Assembly (NCBI GenBank): GCA_951799445.1
Contig: OX637289.1
Span: 23,312,245-23,376,244 of the forward strand
From: Pseudisothecium myosuroides
Taxonomy: Eukaryota > Streptophyta > Bryopsida > Hypnales > Lembophyllaceae
Reading direction: 5' to 3'
Length of the DNA: 64,000 nucleotides
Both the position numbers and the translations under genes were made by a program. Numbering within the stretch: the stretch's first letter is position 1; each line of letters starts with the position of its first letter. Of this stretch, positions 4,441-51,603 are shown piece after piece. The notes beneath the pieces are model-generated. The model was not told the DNA's origin and did not search any database. It worked only from the letters and a program-made list of their open reading frames with translations.

Positions 4441-5508
4441 AGATTAATTCAGCATATAATTATATTGATGCCTCGAACAACGCCACAGTTATCATTTAAA
4501 ATGCTTGCGTATTTGCCCAGACAAATTACCGATGAAGCTCGAAGGTATCCAATATGCACATATATTATATGTGCCTCATGCATAATTACGTGCCAGTGAA
4601 ATTAAGAAACAAACATTCAGTTTTTGATCAGATATTATACTCGATTGGATTTCGAGTATAGCTAGAAATTTGCTTGTCTCGGCGCGCTGTAAGTCGATTG
4701 AGTTGTTAGTTCGTATGTTAGTAGTGCTTGAGTGTCTGAAAAACCTGAATGTGAAATTCTTCTGGTAAGACCTTGAATTGGGACATGGGGTTCAATGTGC
4801 CAGAGTGTCACGAACTGAACATTTGGCAACATGCATGAGCCATAACTTACTTAGCATTCGAAGAAATGAAGCAAAGCGTGCACGTGCCTTTCGATCCGAT
4901 CGAAATGTATATAGCGGAAAGTACATATATTGTATATGTCAGTTTATGGCCACGATCTTAACGTTCATCAACATCAAATTGAATTTTGACATAGTCACTA
5001 ACGTAATATATACCATATATAGTAGCGTCGCTGGGTGATTCTATGTATGTGGACTGAAAGAGAGTCACTCTGAATGATCCGTGCAAGATGAATCCTGTGG
5101 TCCTGCAGCTAACTAGACATGACATGATTGGGCATTTCTACCTTGATCAGGAGGAGTGCAATTCAAACTAAGGGTAAAACTCCATGACAGCAGCCAGGTC
5201 ATATGGATAGATAGATAATGTCCCAAGCCCAAAGGATCAAGCAAGAAGATTAAAAAATGAACAGCTACGCCACATGGATAGATACGTAGATAATATCCCA
5301 AGCCCAAAGAATAGAGCAAGAAGATTTGAAAATGAGACATGTCGTCCAGAACTCACATCAGGAACAACAATGTAGGTGGCAATGCAGGTGGGTGGCTGCT
5401 CCCCGTGACCCACAGTGGCAGCCCATGCCAATCGCATGCACAAATGCAATGAATCAAGGTCACTATCATGGAGACAGCCCTGCACAAGGGGATTACTTTT
5501 TAGCTAGA

Positions 5509-6207
5509 TCACGATGCAATTCTATCGCCTGCAGCAAGTAAACTAGGTCCCGGAGCTGAGCTAGCTGCTAACAGATCGTTCTCAAAGTCGTTGTCAATTC
5601 TGAAGCAGCCAAAGCGAGCCAGGGTTGGCCCGGAATCATCAGTGATCTATTATCCATCAAGCGCCTGGATGCAGCACGCAGCACTCTTGGTGACCTCATC
5701 TCCAGAGAATCCAGCCGAATTCACGAGGCTACCGATCATAACTTGGAAATCCCCTTCCCAATGCTCCAACACTGTTGCTAATAGCATTCCGTACGCATAC
5801 AACGGACATGTACTGTGCAATACGTTAAGAATTTCCTCATGAAATCAACAAAATGTTCGTAATCACCACTGAGAGTTTCATTCGCAGTTCCCAACAATCA
5901 ACAAAAAAAGATCAAAATCTCCCGTAGATTTCACCGAACTGAGAACCTGTGGACAAAGGGTGAGGAAGATGCATGCATGTACGCATCCATAGCCATTGCT
6001 ACTGACTACTGACTACTTCACTTTCAAAAGGCTGAACAAGAAATGACTTACAGTAAGTTCATCACCTGACGGTAAAATATAGTCGACATTAGCTACTTCT
6101 CTGCTACAATGGTAATAATTTATATCAATCACTTGCTCAGGTTCATAATTATCAATCACTTGCTCGATCTGCATTGTTATCCTAGACACATCAGTCCAAT
6201 CCGCCAT
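5509..6207 (-). pseudogene. Two-exon gene remnant, unknown family (block A copy)
   Basis: Exon 1 (6207-6052) runs from an ATG (MADWTDVSRITMQIEQVI) to the donor ACT/GTAAGT, exactly 52 codons. Exon 2 (5946-5509) starts after TTTGTCCACAG and is exactly 146 codons, ending at a TGA shared with block B. The same frame holds LFLLIVGNCE, FHEEILNVLH, LLATVLEHWEGDFQVMIGS, NSAGFSGDEVTKSAACCIQA and AAGDRIAS. It is broken by three TGA codons early in exon 2 and TAA-TAG in the middle. The three early stop positions are also stops in block B, so inactivation probably predates the duplication. Restored, it would be a ~197-residue soluble protein. I do not recognise the family. Confidence 0.55.
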
Positions 6208-7100
6208 TGCAAAACTAGAACTCCTGATCGAAAAAGCTTCCACAATTTAGAAAATGGCAAAGCTCGTTTCAAATTCTCAACAAGAATCCTCTAAACAATG
6301 TAGCAGATTCAACATGATGACTTCTAACAATGTTAGTTTCTAGCAACTGTAAGTAGATAGAATCAGAACCCTACTGCTAAACCAAATATGACCACAAAGG
6401 AAATAGTTACAGTGATTTCTTGTAGAATAATATTAATTTCTATATGTGATTGAATAATTGATTTTTCTCGTCACTTGAACTGAGGATTGAATAAGCATTT
6501 TTCAAATACAGATCTCTCAACTGAGGTTTAAAACCTTACTAATGCAATACAAGCAACATATTTTTCCATGTGAACTTGTGATGAATAACGATTTCTCTCA
6601 TGTAGTTGTCTGAACTTAGGTATCAACACCTAAATGCTCGCAAGTAAGGGGTTGAGCATGGTTTCTATGATTGAGTCAAAAAGCTTGAGTTGGATCTTGT
6701 CAGTAGTCAAAAGGAGATTTCAAATTCTCTTGAGATGCTTTTTTTGGACACTTGAATGAATAAACTATGAATTTTCAAAGTGCTGAAAATTGGTTTATCA
6801 AAAACCAACTTTGGGCTCTCATGAATGGAAGCTGTATATTTTCAGCAAGAATCTAGATGGGATGGTTCCGTTGCAAAGTTGTTACAATTAGGTACAATTA
6901 CGTTATAGCGCTTGTAGGGAGACAAGTACATGTGATGATTTTGTCAACGGAGTTGCTTGTAAAGTAAGCTTATAGGCATTACGGATTGACAATCTATAGA
7001 TTCAATGCCACTCTAAAAAATAAGATTCAAGTTATAGATTTGAAAGTTGAAACTAATGCCGAGATTTTTACATGAGATTGGCATAAGGGATTAATTTTAA

Positions 7101-11660: not shown

Positions 11661-11715
11661 ATCCGTGGCCTGAAGAGGAGGAGCACGGGTGTGTGGTCTG
11701 ACTCTACACTTGCAG

Positions 11716-13069
11716 CTGCGGTGGGTGCCCAATCGCGACTGCTGCGAGAAACTTCGGGATCCCACAGTCGTCCCTCAGAGACCATATTCACGGGAGGGTA
11801 ACAAAACGGAAAAAGGGGTGTGAAGGTGTCTTCACCAAGGAAGAAGAATCAGCTCTTGTGAAGTGGATGTTGGAGATGCAAGATCATGCACACCCAATTT
11901 CTATTCTAGAGCTGAGGAGGAAAGTGGCAGAAATTACGCAAGAACGGTGGACACCCTTCAAGGATGGCATCCCCGGTCGAGGATGGTTGAGATGGTTTAG
12001 AAACCGCCATCCAGAGCTCACCTTGAGGTCTCCACAAGGCCTGGAGGAAGGACGTGCAAGGGGTTTGAATCCCAGCAGTGTTGCATCTTTGTATGACAAC
12101 CTGCAAAAAGCATATGACCATAATGGCTACTTGCCCTCTCACATCTGGAATGCTGATAAATTTGGAGCCCAAGTAGGGAGGAGTGGAGGAGGGACTCTTG
12201 TTTTTGCAAGACGTGGGAGTAGATCTGTGCACACAACAATACCAAACAGCAAGGAGCACCTCACAGTCCTCTCATGTGTGAATGCAGCAGGCCATCACAT
12301 CCCAAACTTCTATATTTTTAAAGGTAAACGAAAAGTGAAGAATTACATTGTCAACTGTGAACCCAAGGCTTGCATGGCAATGCAGCCAAACAGTTGGATG
12401 ACGGCTTTTCTTTTTTCTGCATGGATCACTCATTTCATTACTATTGTGCAAGAGAGGTATGGAATCTCAGAGGAGAATAGACACCTGCTAGTTCTAGATG
12501 GTCATGGTTCACATGTGACGTTGGAGGTGGTGCAGAAGGCCAAATCTGCTGGCCTGGACATCATCACGCTCCCTAGCCACACAAGCCACAGATTACAGCC
12601 ACTTGATGTTAGCATTTTTAAGCCTTTCAAAGTTGCATTCAGAAGTTTCAGAGATAGGTGGAGCATTCAAAACAAGGGGAGAGGGGCAAGGAAGGAAGAA
12701 CTGGCAGAATGGGTGTCCATGGCATTGAGCAAGGCACTCACAGCATCAAAGATCACCAAGGGATTCTCAGCCACCGGGATCTGGCCCCTTCGGCCAACAA
12801 CGATGGATCTTCATATGGCTCCAAGTGAATGTTATGTTGATGTCTGTGCAGAGGATGAAGCGGACGAAGAGGAGGAGGATGCATCGCCAAGCAGCCCACA
12901 GCCGCAGGAAGACTGCGTTCCCAAAACGCAAGGAGTGGCGCTATCGTGTAGAGAGAGTTTACTTCGGGAAATCGCAGGGATTCTGGTTGCAACCAGAAAC
13001 GGCTTAAGGACAAGAAGGATGAGGGCAAGTGAGCTCGTCACTCGCAAAAGCATCCAACTATCAAAATGA
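11716..13069 (+). CDS. Pogo/CENP-B-type DDE transposase, 5' end missing
   Basis: The frame opens after an in-frame TGA at 11699, and the first in-frame ATG is only at 11864. A pipsqueak-type helix-turn-helix (IATAARNFGIPQSSLRDHI, about 11,731-11,787) precedes that ATG, so it must be reached by splicing; CTTGCAG at 11715 is a good acceptor. A CENP-B-like DNA-binding region follows (GWLRWFRNRHPEL). The catalytic domain has Asp in NADKFG, in LLVLDGHGSH and in LQPLDVSIFKPFK (residues 100, 214 and 250 counted from the GTG at 11858), matching the DDD triad of pogo-like Tc1/mariner transposases. The usual NxDExG context is altered to NADKFG. The C terminus is acidic (EDEADEEEED) and then basic. The frame is uninterrupted for over 400 codons, so this element is relatively young. 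I found no terminal inverted repeats. Confidence 0.8.
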
Positions 13070-13250: not shown

Positions 13251-13650
13251 CGTTGGCCTATCTTGTGGTGGCTCTATAAGGGCCAGGGTAAGGGTAGGTG
13301 ATAAGAAACAAGGCCTCGGACGGGTAAAACGGGACGACCAAACCACGAGCTGGCCGTCCGAAAGAATGGCTCCTAAACTTCAAACCCACGGTGACCAGCA
13401 ATTGTGCCTTACCAATGGGAACGACATAAAAGTGACCATGTGGGTGATCAATCCCACTTCGTCATCAACAAACACAAAACGGGGCTAATCCTGAGTTATC
13501 GCATAGCCCGCAACAGGATTACGATGCAAAAATGAAAACAACAAGCCTCCAAAATCGGCTAGGAATAACAATAAAAGAACAACGAGCCTCCAAATCCGGC
13601 TAGGAATAACAAAACAACGGACCACAAGCCACAACACACAAAAAATCTTC

Positions 13651-13845
13651 AAATCTTCAACTCCAAACTTCAAATCTTCACTTCAAACTCCAAATCTTCA
13701 CTTCAAACTCCAAATCTTCACTTCAAACTCCAAATCTTCACTTCAAACTCCAAATCTTCACTTCAAACTCCAAATCTTCACTTCAAACTTCAAATCTTCA
13801 CTTCAAACTCCAAAACTTCACTCCAAACTCCAAAACCGCAACTCC
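13651..13845 (+). repeat. 20-bp minisatellite
   Basis: Tandem units of caaatcttcacttcaaactc, about seven perfect or nearly perfect copies from 13,671 to 13,810 with degenerate units on both sides. The unit contains the same CTTCA core as the short repeat at 13,185, so both may derive from one CTTCAA-rich ancestor. Confidence 0.9.
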
Positions 13846-18905: not shown

Positions 18906-20099
18906 ACTCTTCTTGTGTAAATGAAATATGTATTGTGAAATCACATACAAGAGACAAGTCTATTATACTTCATGGGAGTCTCACTAAGGACAATGCTTAT
19001 GGGATAAAGTCCTAGATGGTGAACTCCATTGGGAACAAAGTACTTTGGAGTTCTCTCATTAAATGTTGCTTAGGTGTTGCTTAAAACATTGCCTCTTGCA
19101 AATCTTGCCAGACGTTGCTCAAACGTTGCTTTATTCCTGGCAGCACTACAGACGTTGCTACCACACGTTGCAAACCCCCCCTTATTCTAGTAGTGTTAAC
19201 TAGTGCCGGAATCAGCTGGAAGTCAAAGTTGATCGATTCAGCATATAATTATATTGATGCCTCGAACAATGCCACAATTATCATTGAAAATGCGGCTTGC
19301 GTATTCGCTCACACAAATTACCCAAAAGTATCCAATATGCACAATATATGTGCCTCATGCATAATTATGTACCAGTGAAATTAAGAAATACTCGATTGGA
19401 TTTCGAGTATAGAAATTTGCTTGTCTCGGCTATACGTCGATCGAGTTGTTAGTACGTTAGTGTCATGGACTGAACATTTGGCAACATGCTTGAGCCATAA
19501 CTTACTTAGCATTTGAAGAAATGAAACAGGTGTTGGCTATGTGTTTCAATTGATCCAGTCTGGGAATTTGATTAAACAACGATCATTCTAGCTGTCCAAG
19601 GCATGTTAGGTAGTAGACCAAAGCATGTCTTTCGATCCGATCGAAATGTATATAGCGGAAAATACATACTAAAATATTGTATATGCAAGTTTATATCACT
19701 CGATGTTTATGCGTATTTGGACTAAAAAAAGTGTCACTCTGAATGATCCGTGCAAGACGAATCATGTGGTCCTGCGGCTAGTTAGACATGACGTGATTGG
19801 GCATTTCTACTTTGATCAGGAGGAGTGCAATTCTAACCAAGGGTGAAACTCCATGACAGGAGCCACGCCACATGGATAGATAGATAATATCCCAAGTCCA
19901 AAGAATCGAGCAATAAGATTCTAAAGTGAGACAGGTCGTCCAAAACTCACCAGGAACAACAATGTAGGTGACAATGCAGGTGGGTAGCTACTCCCCTTGA
20001 CCCACACTAGCAGCTCAAGCCAATCGCATGCACAAATGCAATGAATCAAGGTCACTATCATAGTAGCAGTGGATGTGGATGCGCCTTCCTCACTCTTTC

Positions 20100-20830
20100 A
20101 TCACAAGTTCTCTCAGTCAGGTGAAATCTACGGGAGATCGATTTTGATCTTTTATTGTTTGGTTGTTGGGAACTATATATGAAACTCTCAGCGGTGATTA
20201 TGAACATTTTATTAATTCCATGAGAAAATTCTTAACGTACTGTACATGTTCGTTGTTTGCATACATACTGCTATTAGCAACACTGTTGGAGCATTGGGAA
20301 GGTGATTTCCAAGTTATGATAGCCTCGTGAATTCGGCTGGATTCTCTGGAGATGAGGTCACCAAGAGTGCTGCATGCTGCGTCCAGGCGCTTGATGGATC
20401 ATGGATCACTGATGATTCCGGGCCAGCCCTGGCTCGCTTTGGCTGCTTCAGAATTGACAACGACTTTGAGAACGATCTGTTAGCAGCTAGCTCAGCTCCG
20501 GGACCTAGTTTAATTGCTGCAGGCGATAGAATTGCATTGTGATCTAGCTAAAAAGCAATCCCCTTGGGCGGGACTAGACTGTCTTCACTTCACTTTCAAA
20601 AGGCTCGGAATAAGAAATGACTTACAGTAAGTTCATCACTTGACGGTAAAGCATAGTCGACATTAGCTACTTCTCTGCTACAATGGTAATAATTTATATC
20701 AATCACTTGCTCAGGTTCATATCAGTCACTTGCTTGATCTGCATTATTATCCCAGGTACATCCAATCTGCCATTGCGAAACTAGAACTCCTGAAATAGCT
20801 TCCACAATTCAGAAATTGGCAAAGCTCTTT
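20100..20830. pseudogene. Same gene remnant in block B, split by an inversion
   Basis: The exon 1 homologue lies on the minus strand (about 20,630-20,790) and keeps the donor ACT/GTAAGT, but is frameshifted soon after MADW. The exon 2 homologue lies on the plus strand (about 20,110-20,541), read-through of which gives GDEVTKSAACCVQALDG and AAGDRIAL before the TGA. Compared with block A, exon 2 has lost 4 bases in the GATCGGTAGCC region. The two exons therefore point toward each other and cannot be spliced together. Confidence 0.6.
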
Positions 20831-20920
20831 TAAAATCTCAAACAAGAATCCTCTAAACATTGCAGTAGATTCGACGTGATGACTTCTAACAACGGTAACT
20901 CCTAGCAACCATGTGTAGAT

Positions 20921-20974
20921 CAGGGTTTTTCTTTTGCACTGTAGCAGTAAAGGTGCCAGAAAAAAAAAAAACTG
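20921..20974 (+). mobile_element. 54-bp A-rich insertion with 8-bp target duplication
   Basis: Flanked by exact GTGTAGAT at 20,913-20,920 and 20,975-20,982. Includes a run of twelve A near its 3' end. Block A lacks it (near 6,348). The A-run and direct repeats suggest a very short retroposed fragment. Confidence 0.6.
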
Positions 20975-21246
20975 GTGTAGATAGGATCAAAACCCTACAA
21001 CTAAATCATATATGACCACAAACTTAAGAGAATAATTACAATGATTTCTTGTTGAATTATTTTTATATGTAATTGAATAATTGATTTTTCTCATTATTTG
21101 AACTTAAGATTGAATAAGCATTTTTCAAATACAGATATCTCAACTAAGGTTTAAAACCTAATGCAATACCGGGATGCAATACAAACAACATATTTTTCTA
21201 TGTGAGCTTGTGATGAACAACAGTTTCTCTGATGCAATTGTCTGAA

Positions 21247-22299
21247 GGGTGATTGCACGAAACACCTGTACTATTTGTTGCGTTTTGCAATAGTACTCAT
21301 GATTTTTGCTAGAATACTTTAAAATTAGAATTTTTTTTTAAAAAATATTTAAAAATATGGCCAATGTATGCACCTTTAAGATGAAGCTAACCACCAAAGG
21401 AAATTTGTATAAAAAATCTCTAAGTAGGAAAACTAAAAAAGTGACAAATCGCAAGAAAATAGACACTTCAATGTTTTAATTAATGAAAAATAGTAAAAAA
21501 CTTAAATAAAAAGAAGTAAAAATTGGCCATTTGTAGCAACTCTATGGAGATGGTCATTCACCAGAAAATCCACCAAAATAATTTTTTACATGTTTCAAAA
21601 TGCAAGTAGAAAGCAGGAGGTTCACTTTGTGGACTTCTAGACGACATATAATTAACTAAATTTTCAAAAATATTTCAAGTGGTAGCTAAAAATATACTAC
21701 AAGACCATCTTTTCCAAATTTTAGCTCCAAATTCGTTTTTTGGGGTATTAAATAATACTAAAAAACCCCAACTAATTGGCAAGTGTAATATAAAATTGGG
21801 GGCTATTATTAAATAATAAAAAAAGTTCAAAAACTTCCAAAAAATTAGACAAGGTGCATAATAGTCATAAGTACCTTGTCTATAAATTTTGAGTCATTTG
21901 GAATATGGCCAATTTCATTAAAATGGCGGTATTCCGTTAATTTGGCACTTTTAGCAGTTCAGACTGCACAATCTGAACTATTTTTTCTGTACCAGAATCT
22001 ATACCTATATTAGATTTTTGAAATCTACAACTGTTCTAGATATCTGAAATATATATCAATCCTAGATTTTTTAGATTGCATGGTCTGATATCTACGTCCA
22101 TCTTAGATTTTGAAATCTAAAACCAATCTGGATGTTAGTAATGTATACTTGTCCTAGATATCAGGATGTGAAAATGGCACATGGAATACCGCCATTTTAA
22201 TGAAATTCGCCATGAATCTAAAAAAAAGTTATAGCCAAAAAACTAAACTGCACGCAACATGTGACTAAAAATAGTACAAGTGTTTCATGCAATCACTCT
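21247..22299. mobile_element. Tourist-like MITE in block B, with a second MITE inside
   Basis: Ends GGGTGATTGCACGAAACACC and the complement of a close variant. Empty site in block A near 6,620 (GTCTGAACTTAGG). The extra length over its relatives is due to the nested 309-bp element 21,905-22,213. Confidence 0.8.
21905..22213. mobile_element. 309-bp nested MITE, ATGGCCAATTTCAT ends
   Basis: Inverted ends ATGGCCAATTTCATTAAAAT and complement, flanked by GAAT at 21,901-21,904 and 22,214-22,217. Relatives of the host element (for example 40,592-41,328) lack it at the same internal position. Interior repeats AGATTTTTGAAATCTA-like palindromes. Confidence 0.8.
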
Positions 22300-22691
22300 A
22301 AACTTAGGTAACAACAGCTAAATGCTTCCTAGTAAGGGATTGAGAATGATTTCTACAATTGAACTGAAAAGCTTGAGTTGGAAAAGAGATTCCAAAATTC
22401 TCTGAGCAACGGTAGTCAAAACAAGATTCCAAATTCTCTTAGCATGCTTTTTTTGGACCTTGAATGAATAAACTATCAATTTTCAAAGTGTTGAAGATAG
22501 GTATATCTAAAGTCAACCTTGGGCTCTCATGAATGGAGGCTACACATTTTAGGCAAGAATCTAGATGGGAGACTTTTGCAAATTGATCACAATTAGGTTG
22601 AATCACCTTATTGCCCTTACAAGGAGACAAGTATGGGTGATGATTTTGTCAACGGTATTGCTTGTAAAGTATAAGCATCACTGATTGACAA

Positions 22692-24480: not shown

Positions 24481-26193
24481 ATGCTGGCATTAAGAAACCG
24501 AGCTTCAGGCCTAGTGCTCCGGGCGTCCGAGGTATGTGTTAGAGATAGATTTCGAATTGCGTGCATTTATAGTGTCACCACGAATATATTTCAGACACTC
24601 TTCAAAGTTGCATGACAAGACATAGTTTTGGTCGTACTGTACACAGCTGTGCAATGGAGGAAGGGTAATGTCTACTAAGCGTCTTGGGCCCGATGAGTGG
24701 TGGGCTGTTGATGGTGAAATTTTACGGCTTAGGCCAGAATTTGGGAAGGGGTACACGCTTGTGAACATGGAGGAGCCAGATCCGAGACCTAAGCCTTTGA
24801 ATTACAAAAGGATTTTTGGTGTTCGCATGACTCGTATGCAGAATATCCGTATAAAGGACAATGTAAGTTCGTTTGTTTCAAGCGCTTGAATCAACCTTCT
24901 GAGTGAGTTTGTAGACATTATTCTTACTTCAGCATAGAATTGTTCAGCTTCTTCAAGTCATTGCTAAGAAACTAGAGGCAATTGTAGGAACTTGGTGCAA
25001 CGGTGGAGCCAACAGATCTTCATTTCACTCTTGTGATTGGGACCACTGTATACTGGTTTTCGTGTTGTGAAGAGAGTTTGATTCGGCAATAAGTTTTTAT
25101 CGTGGTTGTGAATTGCCTTTATAAAGACTCAAGAAGGATATTGGGAGGCTTACATGGAGCGCTTCAATCGCGTAAGAGAAGATTGGGAGAAACTTTATTG
25201 GGACGGAGCTCCGAGAGCTCCCGATCAGGACCCCGTAGCGAAGAGACCGTTAGACCACTATCAAATTTTGGGACTTAGAAAGTACGTTGTCTATAGTCCA
25301 ACTCATTTTTTTGGATGAGATTCGGGCAGAAAATACGATTTTGAAAATATTCGTCGGTGATTTAGTTGAATGGAATGCATCTCGTTCGATATGAGGCCTT
25401 CATATCCGTACTATACGGAGATCAATATATTTCTGAATTCTATCTCAAACTTCTAGTTGTTCGCCCTAAATGCCTCCTGATGCACAGCTGACAATTTTTT
25501 TTTCTGTATGTGCAGGAGGCACCAACCCTATTCTCCCCTTGAACTTAAGGTATAGAAGTAGGACCCAACCAAATCTCTTTACTATTCTTGTCTTTGAATA
25601 GAGATTGAAATTGTGATTGGTATTTGCCTGAGATTTTGTGTTCCCAAGTCTAACTTATCTTATATGTCTACGTCCACAGGCGGCATTCCGTGATAAAGCT
25701 ATGTTGTTTCACCCTGAAAATAATAGAGAAAAGGATCCGAAGAGGAGAGGTATTTTGTTCATCACTTTTTTGGTTTGGTTTCCAGTTGATGGAGTTATCA
25801 GGAAGACTGTTTCACCTGTGCACCTTGATCTTAGTACCGGTGTCACAAGTGCTAGATAATCAAGTAACTTTGTTTGTAAGGTGCTAACTCCTCGGTGAAG
25901 GGCCGTAGAGTGGTAGTTGCAATAGATAGAAGACTTGGATAGATTAGATCAGTGACGAAGAAAATACTTGCACTCAATGCAATTTCTCTGGAGCCATATG
26001 AAGCTGTTTATCAGGACTCAACCAGCGATGGGCGCTTTTTGGATGGTGGAATCGTGGTGCTAGACTAATTGATATCATTGCTTTTAAGTCTTCTGATTTT
26101 TGCGCTTGTTTTCTTTCCTCAGCTGCAAATATGGCAAAGTTCAGACAAGTTTGGGAGTCATACAAGAATTTGCAGAACAGGCGAAGCTGGTGA
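24481..26193 (+). CDS. J-domain-like protein with HPE motif, probably mitochondrial
   Basis: Six exons: 24481-24531, 24647-24862, 25127-25281, 25516-25549, 25680-25749 and 26123-26193. All donors are GT, acceptors AG, and the joined CDS is 597 nt (198 residues). Exon 1 encodes MLALRNRASGLVLRAS, Arg-rich without acids, like a mitochondrial presequence. Residues about 25-80 contain WWAVDGEI and EEPDPRPKPLN. A J-like domain spans about 132-193: DHYQILGL (helix I), YSPLELKAAFRDKAM (helix II), FHPENN (loop), then AKFRQVWESYKNL (helix III). Canonical J proteins carry HPD to stimulate Hsp70 ATPase; here residues 163-165 are HPE, so it may not be a normal Hsp70 co-chaperone. The sequence resembles plant DnaJ-domain proteins with a PYT..EIK.AFR.KAMEFHPD core, as I recall them. 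The last exon could instead end at 26189, with splicing onward, because GTGAGA overlaps the TGA; I prefer the stop. Only one copy is seen in the window. Confidence 0.72.
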
Positions 26194-27896: not shown

Positions 27897-30800
27897 TCAG
27901 TAAATGGCGTGCGCCAGAATGGTCTTGAGAAGGGAGTTGCTGTAGGTGTTCACGGCGTCTTTAATGGTGACGTCCAAAGACGCCACCTGCTCAGTGGCCG
28001 GGGCCTGCTGCGTCGGGATGAGGTTGATCAGGTTGAACGCGAACGTGTCCACGACGATTTCCAGTTGCACGAGCGTCAGTCGAATGGGCTCAAAGAACGG
28101 GATCAACGTCAACAAGCCGTGCTTCCCGATCACCGTGTTCAGCAACGCCTGGTGGACCTGATTAATTTCACCACACCAAAAGCATCGAAATTTCCCGAGT
28201 CACACTTCCGTCAAAGCTGTAATTGCCTCAAATGCAAGCTAGAACATGCATTCACAATGAGATTATGTATCCTTGTTACGGTAATATCTGAAGTTTACCA
28301 GATTATTTTTGCAATAGGAGCAAGGGAGTGGCACAATTATTCCCTTGGGGGACACTGTAAACCGGGAATGGAATAATAATGACCAATTCGGGAACCAGAG
28401 ATACATCACAACTCGCAAGGGAGTTTTAAGAGTTTAGTTCCATCATGGTAGTGAAACGGAGTAAACCACTTATTAATGAACGGTTCAATTGAGACATTGG
28501 CAAACTCCGTTTTCATTTCTTCCATGTTTAACTCTTAAATCTCTATTGTGTATATTTCCCTGAGTGACTAATTTTATTGAAGGGGTATGTAAAGAAACCA
28601 GTTCAAGAGGCAGTTGTGGAAAATCTATCGATCCCCACGCGAGAACTGACCTGCACGAACGTCGTGAGAGTCTTCACCACCAGCTTGGCGTCGTCGTCAT
28701 TGAGCGGGCTCGGGTTGGACCCGGGCGCCAGCGCCGCGCTCGCTTGGATCACGTTTTGGATGATCTCAGCGAAGCCCACGGCGATTTTGCCGCCCTGCTT
28801 GGGCGCATTGAAGTTGTTGATCTTTTCGGTTTCCTTGCGCAGGTTGTCTGAGAGCTCCGTGACCTTCTTAATGGCGTCATTGATCACATCCACCAGCTTC
28901 TTATCAGTCCGGGGCAAACGCGCGGCCAGCTGCAGGGAGTTGCTGTAGGTGTTCACGGCGTCTGTAATGGTGACGTCCAAAGACGCCACCTGCTCAGTGG
29001 CCGGGGCCTGCTGCGTCGGGATGAGGTTGATCAGGTTGAACGCGAACGTGTCCACGACGATTTCCAGTTGCACGAGCGTCAGTCGAATGGGCTCAAAGAA
29101 CGGGATCAACGTCAACAAGCCGTGCTTCCCGATCACCGTGTTCAGCAACGCCTGGTGGACCTGATTAATTTCACCATACCAAAAGCATCGAAATTTCCCG
29201 AGTCACACTTTCGTCACTTGAAGCCATAATTGCCTCAAATGCAAGTTAGAACATGCATTCACAATGAGATTATGTATCCTTGTTACGGAAATATCTGAAG
29301 TTTATCAGATGATTTTGCAATAGGAGCAAAGGAAACAGGGGGAACAGGGGGAAAGGGCAAACAAGGAGAATCAGCTAGTGGCACAAATATTCCCTTGGGG
29401 GGATAAGTGCTGTAAACCGGGAATGGAATATTAGTGGTCAATTCAGGAACCAGAGACACATCACAACTCGCAAGGGAGTTTTAAGAGTTTAATTAGTTCC
29501 ATCATGGTAGTGAAACGGAGTAAACCACTTATTAATGAACGGTTCAATTGAGACATTGGCAAACTCCGTTTTCACATCTCCATGTTTAACTCTTAAATCT
29601 CTCTTGTGTATAATCTCCCCCAGTGTGTAATTTTATTGGAGGGACATGTAAAAACAGGGCATGTAAAGAAACCAGTTCAAGAGGCAGTTGTGGAAAATCT
29701 ATCGATCCCCACGCGAGAACTGACCTGCACGAACGTCGTGAGAGTCTTCACCACCAGCTTGGCGTCGTCGTCACTGAGCGGGCTCGGGTTGGACCCGGGC
29801 GCCAGCGCCGCGCTCGCTTGGATCACGTTTTGGATGATCTCAGCGAAGCCCACGGCGATTTTGCCGCCCTGCTTGGGCGCATTGAAGTTGTTGATCTTTT
29901 CGGTTTCCTTGCGCAGGTTGTCTGAGAGCTCCGTGACCTTCTTAATGGCGTCATTGATCACATCCACCAGCTTCTTATCAGTCCGGGGCAAACGCGCGGC
30001 CGGCTGCAGGGAGTTGCTGTAGGTGTTCACGGCGTCTTTAATGGTGACGTCCAAAGACGCCACCTGCTCAGTGGCCGGGGCCTGCTGCGTCGGGATGAGG
30101 TTGATCAGGTTGAACGCGAACGTGTCCACGACGATTTCCAGTTGCACGAGCGTCAGTCGAATGGGCTCAAAGAACGGGACCAACGCCAACAAGCCGTGCT
30201 TCCCGATCACCGTGTTCAGCAACGCCTGGTGGACCTGATTAAACGGAGTAAACAACTTATTAATGAACGGTTCAATTGAGACATTGGCAAACTCCGTTTT
30301 CATATCCTCCATGTTATACTCTTAAATCTCTATTGTGTATATTTCCCTGAGTGTGTAATTTTATTGGAGGGGCATGTAAAGAAAACCAGTTCAAGAGGCA
30401 GTTGTGGAAAATCTATCGATCCCCACGCGAGTACTGACCTGCACAAACGTCGTGAGAGTCTTCACCACCAGCTTGGCGTCGTCGTCACTGAGCGGGCTCG
30501 GGTTGGACCCGGGCGCCAGCGCCGCGCTCGCTTGGATCACGTTTTGGATGATCTCAGCGAAGCCCACGGCGATTTTGCCGCCCTGCTGGGCCGCATTGAA
30601 GTTGTTGATCTTTTCGGTTTCCTTGCGCAGGTTGTCTGAGAGCTCCGTGACCTTCTTAATGGCGTCATTGATCACATCCACCAGCTTCTTATCAGTCCGG
30701 GGCAAACGCGCGGCCAGCTGCAGGGAGTTGCTGTAGGTGTTCACGGCGTCTTTAATGGTGACGTCCAAAGACGCCACCTGCTCAGTGGCCGGGGCCTGCT

Positions 30801-32972
30801 GCGTCGGGATGAGGTTGATCAGGTTGAACGCGAACGTGTCCACGACGATTTCCAGTTGCACGAGCGTCAGTCGAATGGGCTCAAAGAACGGGACCAACGC
30901 CAACAAGCCGTGCTTCCCGATCACCGTGTTCAGCAACGCCTGGTGGACCTGATTAATTTCACCACACCAAAAGCATCGACCTTTCCCGTCACACTTCCGT
31001 CATTTGAAGCCATAATTGCCTCGAATGCAAGCTAGAACATGCATTCACAATGAGAATATGTATCCTTGTTACGGAAATATCTGAAGTTTACCAGATGATT
31101 TTGCAATAGGAGCAAGGGAAACAGGGGGAACAGGGGGAAAGGGCAAACAAGGAGAATCAGCAAGTGGCACAAATATTCCCTTGGGGGGACAAGTGCTGTA
31201 AACCGGGAATGGAATATTAGTGGTCAATTCAGGAACCAGAGATACATCACAACTCGCAAGGGAGTTTTAAGAGTTTAGTTCCATCATGGTAGTGAAACGG
31301 AGTAAACCACTTATTAATGAACGGTTCAATTGAGACATTGGCAAACTCCGTTTTCACATCTCCATGTTATACTTTTAAATCTCTCTTGTGTATAATCTCC
31401 CTGAGAGTGTAATTTATTGAAGGGGTATGTAAAGAAACCAGTTCAAGAGGCAGTTGTGGAAAATCTATCGATCCCCACGCGAGAACTGACCTGCACGAAC
31501 GTCGTGAGAGTCTTCACCACCAGCTTGGCGTCGTCGTCACTGAGCGGGCTCGGGTTGGACCCGGGCGCCAGCGCCGCGCTCGCTTGGATCACGTTTTGGA
31601 TGATCTCAGCGAAGCCCGCGGCGATTTTGCCGCCCTGCTGGGCCGCATTGAAGTTGTTGATCTTTTCGGTTTCCTTGCGCAGGTTGTCTGAGAGCTCCGT
31701 GACCTTCTTAATGGCGTCATTGATCACATCCACCAGCTTCTTATCAGTCCGGGGCAAACTCGCAGCCAGCTGCAGGGAGTTGCTATACGTCGTCTGCGCG
31801 TCTTTCAAAGTGACTGACAATGCACTGAATGGTGCAATTTGTTGCGGAACAATCCAGCCCAAACGCAACCCAAAATGTAAATAATAAATTACAAGGGGTT
31901 GGTGAAGATAAAGCTCTTACAGTACATCCTGTTCAAAAATAACTTACCTGAAATTTTATAAACCAAGCCCAACTTAAATAATCGACGACGACGGACTATC
32001 ACTAAAGTTCACGCACTTTCGACGCAGTTATCGCTTTTGTATTGTAGTTAGCTAACCTTTAAGAACAGGGAGCCTTGGTACGGTTATGGGAGAAAAATGG
32101 CAAGTTGTAGTCTTGAATCAAGACCGCCTCAGAGTGTACTTTGAAGCTCATCGCAAGGATCACATCGAAAGGATCACATCGAGGTCCAAATTATGAGTTA
32201 CTACACGACCTCTCCCTTCCTAGCCCGACCTCAACCCAAAGATCGAAAACTTGACATATTTGTTTGGATGGTGTCAGGGACTGGTCAACTTGGCATTTTG
32301 TGGTTTTCTCTGCAATCAGAATAAGTGGGAAAAATTGTCTAACATTAATATTTTTTGGTTTCCCGCTTCTTGTCTAACATTACATTTAAGCAGAACTATG
32401 AAATTTCTCATCTTAACAGCCAACCAGTACCTGAATTGGTCAGCGCCGGCGGGCTTTTGGGTGGGGATGAGGTCGATGAGGTAGAACGCGAACGTGTCGA
32501 TGACGATCTCCAGGTTGACGAGCGACACGCGAATGGGTTCAAAGAAGGGGATCAGCGTGGTGAGCCCGTGCTTCCCAATCACCACGTTGAGGAGCGCCTG
32601 GTGGACCTTCACGAACGTCGTCAGGCTCTGCACTACCAGCTTGGCGTCGGCGTCGGGCAGCGGCTCCGGGTCGTAGCCGTAGGAGGTTCCAGCCAGACGG
32701 GCGGTGTACTCCGTGATCTTCACGATGATGGTGCCAAAGCCGGCGCCGATCTTCACCCCTTGCGTGGGGGCGTTGAAGATCGTGATCTTCTCCGTTTCAA
32801 TGCGCAGGTTGTTGGACAGCTCCGTGATCTCCTTGAACGCCTTCTGGATGCGCTCCACGGGCTTCGGCTCATCGTCCGAGGCGGTTAGACCGTAGACCCG
32901 GGCTTGAACCGCACTTTGGAAGAGCGCCAGGGACACCAGCAGCAGGCACACGGCCCTGGATATCGACGCCAT
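27897..32972 (-). CDS. Secreted five-domain HsbA-like repeat protein, six exons
   Basis: Exons on the minus strand are 32972-32431, 31824-31491, 30948-30439, 30234-29725, 29160-28651 and 28157-27897. All junctions are GT-AG, the phases match (2, then 0 throughout), and the joined length is 2,667 nt, giving 888 residues. The ATG at 32972 is followed by a signal peptide ending near VQA/RVYG, so secretion is expected. The mature part holds five tandem domains. Each has an A half (from an ITELS/VTELS helix to LTTFV) and a B half (VHQALLN to IPTQ), with a linker containing TYSNSLQ between domains. Domain 1 lies whole in exon 1; domains 2-5 are split A/B by an intron. The mature protein has no Cys or Trp. 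The helical pattern with a D-D-A-K-L-V-V segment, a K-H-G-L step and a C-terminal DTFAF helix resembles the fungal HsbA family (PF12296), which binds hydrophobic surfaces; that homology is inferred. Exons are GC-rich and introns AT-rich. The copy number of the internal exons could be misassembled. Confidence is high for the exon chain and moderate for function. Confidence 0.8.
28651..30948 (-). repeat. Tandem array of three near-identical 510-bp coding exons
   Basis: Exons 3 (30439-30948), 4 (29725-30234) and 5 (28651-29160) are each exactly 510 bp, phase 0-0, and differ by only a few codons. Exons 3 and 4 share ALVPFF where exons 5 and 6 have TLIPFF. Exons 4 and 5 have APKQGGK where exons 2 and 3 have AAQQGGK. 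Three of the introns between units share sequence (542, 564 and 493 bp). The one between exons 3 and 4 is only 204 bp and looks like a deletion derivative. Because the units are phase-symmetric, adding or losing one adds or removes 170 residues without a frameshift. Confidence 0.85.
32055..32250 (+). pseudogene. Coding-like fragment i, inside intron 1 of the HsbA-like gene
   Basis: On the plus strand, opposite to the host gene, a frame reads GSLGTVMGEKWQVVVLNQDR and FEAHRKDHIE before a small local duplication of GGATCACATCGA shifts it. The block D copy (51,131-51,313) lacks that duplication and continues with VQIMSYYTTSPFLARPQPK. The combined frame looks like a genuine exon starting after TTTAAG. 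Family not recognised. Likely a broken exon of an older gene in the duplicated block. Confidence 0.4.
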
Positions 32973-34160: not shown

Positions 34161-34468
34161 CTAGACGGATAGGGGAGACTGACCGAACCGGTATTCTAAG
34201 TTATCCATAGGAATTTAATTGTGGTCTGCAGGACAGTCACTGTCTAGTTTTAATTGTGAGGAGGTGATTGATCGGTTTTCAGTTCAAAACAGAACCTAGC
34301 TAGCTAGCCTAGACGAAATGGTGTTAGCTAGTAAATAATTACTACCCCAACTGCGGGGGTATCGTGTTGAGAAACTGGGTTAATTTTGCGGGGAATGCAG
34401 TAAGTTGCTGATGCGTAGTGCAAAAGGTGCTTGCCCCTGTTTCGTGTTTCGTACAGATAGCAGATAGC

Positions 34469-34560
34469 AGGCCTTGGAAATTTCGAAGACCAATCACAAC
34501 CTGATTCGTGCACTAAACAGGCCTTGGAATTTTTCAAACCCAATCACAACCTGTGCATGC
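34469..34560 (+). repeat. Tandem repeat, two units of about 45-56 bp
   Basis: Units begin CAGGCCTTGGAAATTTC and run through CCAATCACAACCTG. Block D has three units (52,062-52,190), so this is a variable-number repeat. Confidence 0.7.
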
Positions 34561-34672
34561 CTGTCGTGCAAGCACCTGCGATGTACGCTCCCTCACCCGC
34601 AGAAGACAACTTCGGGTTTTGCTACTGATCGAGTCTCCCATGAGATGCACGTGATAGGGCATCCCATGTGAA
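34520..34672 (+). pseudogene. Coding-like fragment ii, block C copy
   Basis: Equivalent of 52,104-52,316. The frame PVVQAPAMYAPSPAED is followed by a frameshift relative to block D, so the two copies differ in coding status. Confidence 0.35.
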
Positions 34673-35675
34673 GCATGCTGCCTTTGTGAATTGAAGACAC
34701 GCTGGCCCCTTGTTGTCGATCTAGCTCTTGAAACGTACTCAAGAGCTAGTGATCTGTGGCCTGTAAAGACGATATGATCGTACCGCGTACTCGGATTTGG
34801 CGCGCCCCTTGCTGCAATGATCGACATTTACGTGGCATTCTTATTTCCCTTCATTTCCAAACTTTAATTATTATTATTTTTTTTTTTTTGGTGGGAAACG
34901 GTGACAACTTTAATTACTTTGAATATACAGTATGTCCTAGATTAGACTCGTATTAATCTGAAACTCTTGTTCCTCAAGACTATTGTAAGCTCAAGCTAAA
35001 CCCGGGTTCAAAATCTTCAAGCTTGGAATGAAGGAGGCTTTACAATGTCCAATATTGTTCTCAAGGTTAGTTACGAGTTACGAGTTACGATTTCATTTGG
35101 GTTTCAGAACATTGGTTCTGATTGAAGTTTGATGAATATGTGATTTTAACGTCAATTTTTGGGTGGTTGAAATTAAACCCCCTACGATAGTCTGCTCTAA
35201 AAACGCCCATGTCAAAAAGCGATCATGACACAGGGTTACATTTTGCTTTCTTCTATGTACCAATAGTGTACATTTCAGTAGATGGTCGCTATTATTGACC
35301 ACTGCGTTTCAACTTCAAAGATTCGTAACTAATTCCACAAAGGTCTAGAAAAATATGAAACGACTTGGATTAGATGCCAATTCCATTTTTCTTCCTGCGA
35401 AAATTTACTGAAATTTTTTTGAATTTTTTTTCAAGGAGTTTAGCTTTCCCCAAAATCCAATCAGCTCTTAAAATATCGCTGAAGTTCACGCACTTTCGAC
35501 AGACTATTTTACTTAGCTACTAGGCAGATATCATGTGGGTTTTGGGAACAAAGAGTCCATATTGTACAGTACAGATTACTGTCTCTGTCGAGCCAGGTCT
35601 CTGTGTGAGGGTCCATGAAGAACTTGTCATGTGTACTCAGTAAAAGGACGACCAATAAATTTCCTTAAATTTCCT

Positions 35676-35834
35676 TAGAAATGCTAACCATCGTGGTGAC
35701 CCTTCAGGAAGCACTGAAAACTCTGCAGCTTACTGTAAACTTACCAAAGGGCAGAAATTTCCAACTTATGACAACGTACGAGTCAGTTTCCAGCCTATAT
35801 TTAATTGTTCAGAATATTTTGGACTTTAGCCGAC
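35676..35834 (+). pseudogene. Coding-like fragment iii, block C copy
   Basis: After a good acceptor (TTTCCTTAG at about 35,678) a frame reads NANHRGDPSGSTENSAAYC, TKGQKFPTYDNVRVSFQ and FNCSEYFGL-stop. Composition is that of an extracellular or surface domain with two cysteines. The block D copy at about 53,238-53,372 keeps most of this frame. Family not recognised. Confidence 0.4.
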
Positions 35835-36010
35835 TGAGTTCGAACATTGAAACCAGGCCGATTCGGATTCCACGTTTGCAGCGAGCCGCGCGCGTATCAA
35901 TGGATCCAGCACCTGCAATCATTAATTTTCTGCCATAGACTTTACTCAGATACTTCAGCTACTGTACGTAGATTTCTCAGTTGATTCTTTTAATTTACTC
36001 AGCTAGTCAG

Positions 36011-36559
36011 CTGGGAAGGGAAGTTCCATTAAGTTCACGATTTTTAGTTAAAATTGCAATGGTTTACGAACGTAATGTAACCCTGAGTGCCCTTGTTATC
36101 GCAGAAAGAGCGGCTTTTGCATCTCGGAAACTTGCCAATGTGATTGAAATTGCCTTGAATGATGACCTCCAGGAAGTTGGTATGCCCTGGAGCTGATATT
36201 ATCCTTTCACTTGATAGCACTATAGCAGTGAACCTGGACTCGTTTCCGGACTAAATGCATTTCGCAAACTCCAAGTCCCTACTGATGAAAACCATGTGGC
36301 CAGCACTGCTGGATGTATTACGAAGTTATCAACGTCCAGCAGTTCTAACTTACTTACATATGTCCAAACTCCAAAGAATGAGTACATTTTTTACACAGAC
36401 AACGAAAACAGGATAAGCCTCACGTACACCTGCAGTTCTGCACTCGACTGCACTGGCAGTCCAGCACCCGGCCTGTACGTACCCGAAGACTGCATTCGTC
36501 ATTCGATTAGTAGACTGTCTCTTTTGACCAGTCCCGATATCTGGTGCAGTAGGCTCTGA
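36011..36559 (+). pseudogene. Coding-like fragment iv, block C copy
   Basis: Following TACTCAG/CTAGTCAG, a frame reads LGREVPLSSRFLVKIAMVYE, IAERAAFASRKLANVIEIAL, NDDLQEVGMP. Small insertions at about 36,187 and 36,228 shift it, after which EPGLVSGLNAFRKLQVPTDE, KNEYIFYTDNENRISLTYTC and DCTGSPAPGLYVPEDCI run to a TGA at 36,557. The length of coherent frame argues for a former exon of about 180 codons. Family not recognised. Confidence 0.45.
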
Positions 36560-36657
36560 GTGTCAGGATTTGGCATAATTTTCTGGATATACCTCAAGAT
36601 ATCCTGAAGGCAGTCAGTGGGGGCCGTTTCACACGGCACTGGATATATACTGCTTAA

Positions 36658-50700: not shown

Positions 50701-50965
50701 TCAGTATATGGCGTGCGCCAGAGCGGTCTTGAGAATGGGCTCGCTGTAAGTGTTCAAGGCGTCTTTAATGGTGACGTCCAGAGACGCAACCTGCTCAGTG
50801 GCCGCGGGCTGCTGCGTGGGGATGAGGTTGATCAGGTTGAATGCGATCGAACGCGTCCACGACGATCTCCAGTTGCACGAGCGCCAGTCGAATGGGCTCA
50901 AAGAACGGGATCAACGTCAACAAGCCGTGCTTCCCGATCACCGTGTTCAGCAACGCCTGGTGGAC
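50701..50965 (-). pseudogene. Remnant of the last exon of the HsbA-like gene
   Basis: Homologous to exon 6 (27897-28157) but 265 bp instead of 261, because of a 4-base insertion in the DTFAF-coding region (about 50,845) that shifts the frame. The intron acceptor is destroyed (AATCAG became AATCAT), and exons 1-5 are absent from this block. The C-terminal part after the shift still reads AFNLINLIPTQQPAATEQVA and ends in the same LAHAIY-stop. Non-functional as it stands. Confidence 0.85.
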
Positions 50966-51130
50966 ATGATTAAATTCTTACAGTACGTACATCCTGTTCA
51001 AAAATAACTTACTTCAAATTTTATAAAGCAAGCCAAACTTTAATAATCGACGACGACGAACTATCACTAAAGTTCAAGCACTTTCGACGTAGTTATCGCT
51101 TTTTTATTGTACATAGTTAGCTAACCTTCA

Positions 51131-51313
51131 AGAACAGGGAGCCTTGGTACGGTTATGGTAGAAAAATGCCAAGTTATAGTCCTTAATCAAGACCGCAAAG
51201 TTGTAGTCTTTGAAGCTCATCGCAAGGATCACATCGAGGTCCAAATTATGAGTTACTACACAACCTCTCCCTTCCTAGCCCGACCTCAACCAAAGATCGA
51301 AAACTTGACATAT
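51131..51313 (+). pseudogene. Coding-like fragment i, block D copy
   Basis: Reads MVEKCQVIVLNQDRKVVVFE, then AHRKDHIEVQIMSYYTTSPF, for about 50 coding-like codons before it degenerates into AT-rich sequence. Better preserved than the block C copy at 32,055-32,250. Unknown family. Confidence 0.4.
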
Positions 51314-51603
51314 TTGTTTTGGATGGTGTCATGGACGTACTGGTCAACTTGGCATTTTGTGGTTTTCTCTGCAATCAGAATAAGTGGGATAAATTGTCTA
51401 ATATTAATATTTTTTGGTTTCCCAGCTTGCTTCGCTTCTTGTCTAACATTAAATTTAAGCAAAACTAGTGAGACTGACCAAACCGGTGTTCTAAGTTATC
51501 CATGGGAATTCAATTGTGGTCTGCAGGATAGTCACTGTCTAGTTTTAATTGCGAGGAGGTGATTTATCGATTTTCATTTCAAAACAGAAGCTAGCTAGCG
51601 TAG

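Follow-up and report, generated by a model that had tools for sequence, protein, structure and literature searches.

The window analysed here, 64,000 nucleotides of the bryophyte Pseudisothecium myosuroides (contig OX637289.1, positions 23,312,245 to 23,376,244), carries on its minus strand a six-exon gene (32972-27897) that encodes a putatively secreted protein of five tandem domains related to the fungal C166 and HsbA families. Joined together, the exons of 542, 334, 510, 510, 510 and 261 bp yield one open frame of 2667 nt, corresponding to 888 codons plus the stop. A script check of every border found GT-AG at all five introns and exon start phases of 0/2/0/0/0/0, which confirmed each coordinate of the join proposed by an earlier, sequence-only reading of this DNA. 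The GC content of the exons is 57-61%, compared to 37% for the window, and reaches 85% at third positions. Long plus-strand open reading frames (ORFs) opposite the exons were set aside; they are probably a by-product of the third-position GC of 0.85.

Exon 1 (32431-32972, minus strand, as for all parts of the gene) encodes nearly the whole of domain 1, with no mid-domain intron, behind a putative signal peptide (about residues 1-24), and ends in the split codon 181. Intron 1 (31825-32430, 606 bp) interrupts the linker that joins domain 1 to domain 2 and is only 44-46% identical to introns 2-5. Exon 2 (31491-31824) encodes the linker and the first half of domain 2. It is followed by intron 2 (30949-31490, 542 bp), which is almost identical in sequence to introns 4 and 5, and by exon 3 (30439-30948), which combines the second half of domain 2 with the first half of domain 3. 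Intron 3 (30235-30438, 204 bp) belongs to the same family as introns 2, 4 and 5, and falls short of intron 2 by about 340 bp. Exon 4 (29725-30234), intron 4 (29161-29724, 564 bp), exon 5 (28651-29160) and intron 5 (28158-28650, 493 bp) then lead to exon 6 (27897-28157), which holds the second half of domain 5, a short C-terminal tail and the stop. Exons 3, 4 and 5 are each exactly 510 bp and phase 0-0, as previously described.

The 888-codon frame cannot be due to chance, because the Marchantia multidomain proteins P0034-P0037 are 52-56% identical to its product in alignments that cover 94-99% of the product's length. In addition, an uninterrupted 267-residue ORF (P0002) on a 1240-bp contig of a relative is 84% identical, along 261 residues, to an in silico join of exons 1, 2 and 6, crossing both junctions with no gap at the joins; it would support the splicing if that contig is cDNA. 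P0002 would be a two-domain form, but short-read collapse of near-identical repeats could give two domains as well, and it is no proof of repeat variation.

Pairwise comparison revealed that exons 3, 4 and 5 are 98.6-99.2% identical, and that introns 2-5 are 92-95% identical, with the units spaced 714-1074 bp apart. The duplicated unit is therefore an exon plus an intron: the tandem duplication suggested previously is real, whereas the exon alone is not its unit. The units can be told apart in DNA by the short intron 3 and by private substitutions. Synonymous differences among the three exons amount to 0-1 of about 124 sites, compared to 4.5-5.4% in the flanking introns, with Fisher p values of 0.003, 0.034 and 0.074 for the three pairs, which are non-independent. 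This pattern is suggestive of a stronger homogenisation of exons than of introns, possibly by exon-centred gene conversion, which is not established. Selection may act on the repeat number of this gene, as was argued from its architecture, but the architecture does not show it: recent unequal exchange and gene conversion would, without selection, leave both the exons and the introns of the units this alike.

A domain profile located five domains, all of them full-length (residues 33-197, 210-367, 380-537, 550-707 and 720-877), in agreement with the predicted number. Domains 2-5 are mutually 96-99% alike, whereas domain 1 shares 63-65% identity with them. The exon junctions fall at residues 180.7, 292, 462, 632 and 802. 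The claim that the boundary falls mid-domain holds for the last four junctions, in domains 2-5, but not for the first, which lies near the end of domain 1, a domain contained almost whole in exon 1. Beyond residue 25 the product has no Cys or Trp, as had been noted, and no N-glycosylation motif. Its N-terminus shares the pattern MAS..SRAV.LL with the Ceratodon proteins P0017 and P0018. Together with the nearest named relatives and with an intron-split J-domain gene in the flank, which marks a eukaryote of whatever kind, this pattern points to a bryophyte. A fungal genome was judged an unlikely source, in view of introns as long as 204-606 bp, the N-terminal pattern and the J-domain gene. The proposed signal peptide, judged from the N-terminus, is plausible and graded putative, and secretion of the protein is likewise plausible.

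Family searches placed the protein in C166 (PF17615), with 209.6 bits over five stretches for the full protein, above the curated cut-off, and 55.3 bits for exon 1 alone against a cut-off of 36.7 bits. It also passes the cut-off of HsbA (PF12296), with 73 against 33.5 bits over four stretches, though only by summing over the repeats; searched singly, exons 1 and 3 gave no HsbA match at E 0.001. Five other families among the 25 of 33 shown (DUF848, DUF6389, COG2_N, 56B_RHH and Calpain_inhib) pass their own cut-offs at 23-41 bits. They were taken as weak matches and set aside, because near-identical repeats sum their scores and none was returned by exon 1 or exon 3 alone at E 0.001.

The modelled fold of the domain is a helical bundle that resembles the ligand-binding domain of Mp1p-type fatty-acid-binding proteins, and in a structural comparison of the model six of the eight top titles are fatty-acid-bound domains. 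An AlphaFold2 model of the three-domain Ceratodon protein P0041 (mean predicted local distance difference test score 68.8, predicted template modelling score 0.36) gives no reliable arrangement of the domains, and its single domains match Mp1p and Afmp4p. The first-ranked match to that model, a designed repeat protein aligned with a root-mean-square deviation of 25 Å, was disregarded. In a sequence search for a solved Mp1p-type member, a profile of 24 sequences found no PDB chain at E values up to 1, and a single domain gave four weak matches to PDB sequences (best E 0.046), none of the C166/HsbA family. The family and the predicted fold sharpen the earlier notion of a surface or adhesive protein to one that probably binds lipids or hydrophobic surfaces.

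Searches for relatives returned bryophyte and fungal proteins. With exon 1 as the query, 33 of 249 candidates matched, the named ones being three from Ceratodon, two from Marchantia and three from fungi (Morchella, Sphaerosporella and Trametes). The full-length query gave 15 matches among the best 7997 candidates, including nine named from Marchantia polymorpha, two from M. paleacea and one from Ceratodon. The profile query gave 104 among the best 7999, in which all organism-labelled matches are fungal (many named Basidiomycota and several Ascomycota) or from Marchantia and Ceratodon, without a single named vascular plant, hornwort, alga or animal; as the latter two queries scored only the candidates sharing most words, absence from other groups is not implied. 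Databases already list the members from Marchantia and Ceratodon under the label “hypothetical proteins”. Among the papers listed by a literature search that had most subscription papers outside its reach, no title or abstract reports this family in plants; one of them, PMC4827209, matches through its reference list only. The portion consulted of a 2025 review on horizontal gene transfer in plants (PMC12448838) has no word beginning with “hydrophob”.

Domain counting gave 158 full-length domains in 121 proteins (120 matches plus the window product). Five domains are found in the window product, Mp4g06550 (P0036) and Mp4g06545 (P0037), seven in MPTK2_4g90130P (P0034), and four in Mp4g09460 and MARPO_0120s0049. 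Three are present in MPTK2_4g07930, M. paleacea P0045 and P0047, Ceratodon P0041, and P0042, P0044 and P0046, whereas P0043, P0049, P0050 and P0051 have fewer or partial domains. The first domain of the seven-domain P0034 is 98.8-99.4% identical to those of both five-domain proteins P0036 and P0037, and the three may be alleles or paralogues; we take MPTK1 and MPTK2 to denote the strains Tak-1 and Tak-2. With relatives of three to seven domains, and near-identical Marchantia genes of five and seven, the possibility of in-frame gain or loss of whole domains, raised by the sequence-only reading, is supported. Two models, P0035 and P0039, bear one locus name (MARPO_0112s0050) with six and four domains, respectively, and are otherwise near-identical, which may reflect either whole-domain exon skipping or a modelling difference. 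P0046 and P0049 are labelled “glycopeptide antibiotics resistance protein” by their source, a label that looks wrong for this family.

Mp4g06545, Mp4g06550 and MARPO_0112s0050 of M. polymorpha and KC19_10G027400 of Ceratodon purpureus resemble the window protein in having a signal-peptide-like N-terminus and three to seven tandem domains near-identical within each protein. The Marchantia and Ceratodon multidomain proteins share 48-59% identity with the window protein; across the four Marchantia proteins compared, domain 1 is much more divergent, at 42-45% identity to the others against 63-65% here. The Morchella “UVI-1 protein” (P0010) and Ceratodon P0017 and P0018, which are 54-61% identical to exon 1, have a single domain. 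In a quick tree of 90 of the 158 domains, which left out Marchantia near-duplicates and many of the fungal and unlabelled rows, window domains 2-5 cluster, P0035 and P0037 each have a group of their own for their later domains, and the three Ceratodon domains cluster together with one row of unlabelled source. Such clustering by protein would be as expected from separate amplification or concerted evolution.

The quick tree also contains a bryophyte/window/Pezizales group with a support of 92. A careful tree of 38 rows, from which all unlabelled rows, five long-branched fungi and near-identical domains were further left out, unites Morchella and Sphaerosporella with the 22 rows of the bryophytes and the window, against 14 Basidiomycota rows chosen as the outgroup, on a branch supported at 100/99. 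Within it, the Morchella P0010 joins the Ceratodon single-domain proteins at 98/88, a position that might reflect either a close donor lineage or a plant-to-fungus transfer. Forcing the two Pezizales together was not rejected in the approximately unbiased (AU) test (p 0.43). Judged from these comparisons, the kinship of the window and bryophyte proteins with the fungal ones is firm. In the favoured reading, bryophytes would have acquired the family, in one or more transfers, most probably from a Pezizomycetes-like donor.

Taken as a whole, the best explanation, to which we assign a probability of about 0.6, is that this nuclear bryophyte gene encodes a secreted C166/HsbA/Mp1p-like binder of fungal descent, built of five tandem helical-bundle domains and changing in domain number by unequal exchange. 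Each domain would probably have a pocket among its helices for a fatty acid or another lipid, or would lay its hydrophobic faces on waxy surfaces. The five linked domains might then form a multivalent, high-capacity binder with one lipid or hydrophobic contact per domain, acting in the cell wall, in the cuticle or facing microbes. Domain number would grow or shrink via unequal exchange between the near-identical exon-plus-intron units; because the introns are mid-domain and of phase 0, any unit-wise exchange would preserve the frame and regenerate whole domains. Identity is 13-18% with two fatty-acid-binding wall or surface proteins, Talaromyces marneffei Mp1p and Aspergillus fumigatus Afmp4p. 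Mp1p has two domains compared to five here, and is described as carrying a serine/threonine-rich region and a glycosylphosphatidylinositol anchor in the part of PMC4999278 consulted. The named fungal profile matches are mostly of 170-200 residues, equivalent to one domain.

Several observations weigh against parts of this explanation. Matches between helical bundles call for caution, which slightly lowers our confidence. In the quick tree, against a clean pattern of grouping by protein, the domains of M. paleacea P0045 fall with those of P0035, the P0047 domains have no clear placement, and the three P0042 domains are not grouped by protein. A constraint to a single bryophyte clade passes the AU test (p-AU 0.253, at a cost of 7.67 log units), so the nesting is weak. 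This last result also speaks against a competing origin, in which a bryophyte gene passed to Morchella, or the domain is ancient and was inherited vertically with wide loss. The position of Morchella next to the Ceratodon single-domain proteins would fit that origin, but the many Basidiomycota and several Ascomycota, in the absence of any named vascular plant, hornwort, alga or animal among the 104 matches listed, make it rather unlikely.

The role of the protein might also differ from lipid binding. A wall or cuticle scaffold or a hydrophobic coat, whose repeat number sets length and stickiness without a meaningful lipid pocket, would suit the tandem near-identical domains and the lack of Cys, Trp and N-glycosylation motifs; moreover, HsbA of Aspergillus oryzae is described, in the part of PMC6859710 consulted, as bringing lytic enzymes to hydrophobic solids. 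We consider such a structural protein less likely, though the strongest of the competitors, given that the nearest solved folds are mostly fatty-acid-bound domains. A factor in defence or symbiosis that takes up or masks fungal lipids or signals, or binds hyphae, is more doubtful still. The family is otherwise fungal among the named matches listed, and Marchantia offers a precedent in fungus-derived lectins and terpene synthases that, according to the part of PMC12890914 consulted, are induced by fungi or associated with resistance; however, the word “hydrophobic” is absent from the main text of that paper as far as consulted, and expression of the window gene is itself presumed. The least probable alternatives are that assembly created the array or that the gene is a pseudogene. 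Near-identical units are hard to assemble and a decayed copy lies about 18 kb away, but the units differ in DNA as described above, and every one of the six exons keeps an open frame and undamaged splice borders, in a state quite different from that of the decayed copy.

We tentatively propose, at less than even odds, that bryophytes have repeatedly and independently made a borrowed fungal lipid-binding wall domain into tandem proteins of variable length. Concerted evolution would keep the exon-plus-intron units of these proteins alike, and the number of domains would differ within a species. If true, these would be a plant counterpart of the fungal repeat-variable surface proteins, on a borrowed fungal fold. 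The window gene presents a clean, phase-neutral route for adding or removing whole domains, caught soon after duplication in a family seemingly borrowed from fungi. As Marchantia is genetically tractable and has near-identical genes with five and seven domains, both the plant function of a fungal-type lipid-binding fold and the rate of repeat change are testable.

The decayed second copy consists of a last-exon remnant broken into two frames (50704-50977, minus strand), detected by translated search, and of intron-1-like DNA (50968-51467, minus strand) that is 87% identical to 31907-32398. Apart from 50704-51467, translated search of the window found nothing more of the gene beyond its main locus. 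The adjacent segment at 51470-54609 matches the upstream flank of the gene (34175-36605) in three blocks of 78-92% identity. As this flank is duplicated beside the remnant, the second copy therefore arose from a segmental duplication and has since decayed.

Elsewhere in the window, tRNA and Rfam searches gave no match, ten neighbouring ORFs had no Pfam match, and of two neighbouring-gene peptides compared to PDB sequences, one gave a single match at E 0.063 and the other none. A J-domain-like multi-exon gene lies at 25112-26190 on the plus strand, perhaps starting from 24626, with 36.9 bits for DnaJ on hand-joined exons and the usual histidine-proline motif in the form HPEN. A 455-codon stop-to-stop frame (11702-13069, plus strand) resembles a Tc5/pogo-like transposase, with 82.6 bits for DDE_1 and 33.8 bits for HTH_Tnp_Tc5. 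A 20-bp tandem array of 9.2 copies with 95% matches occupies 13650-13834. In addition, a repeat of several kilobases is present in two copies (5045-6992 and 19713-22691) with blocks 77-89% identical, one of which (5476-5977/20575-20076) is inverted relative to its neighbours.

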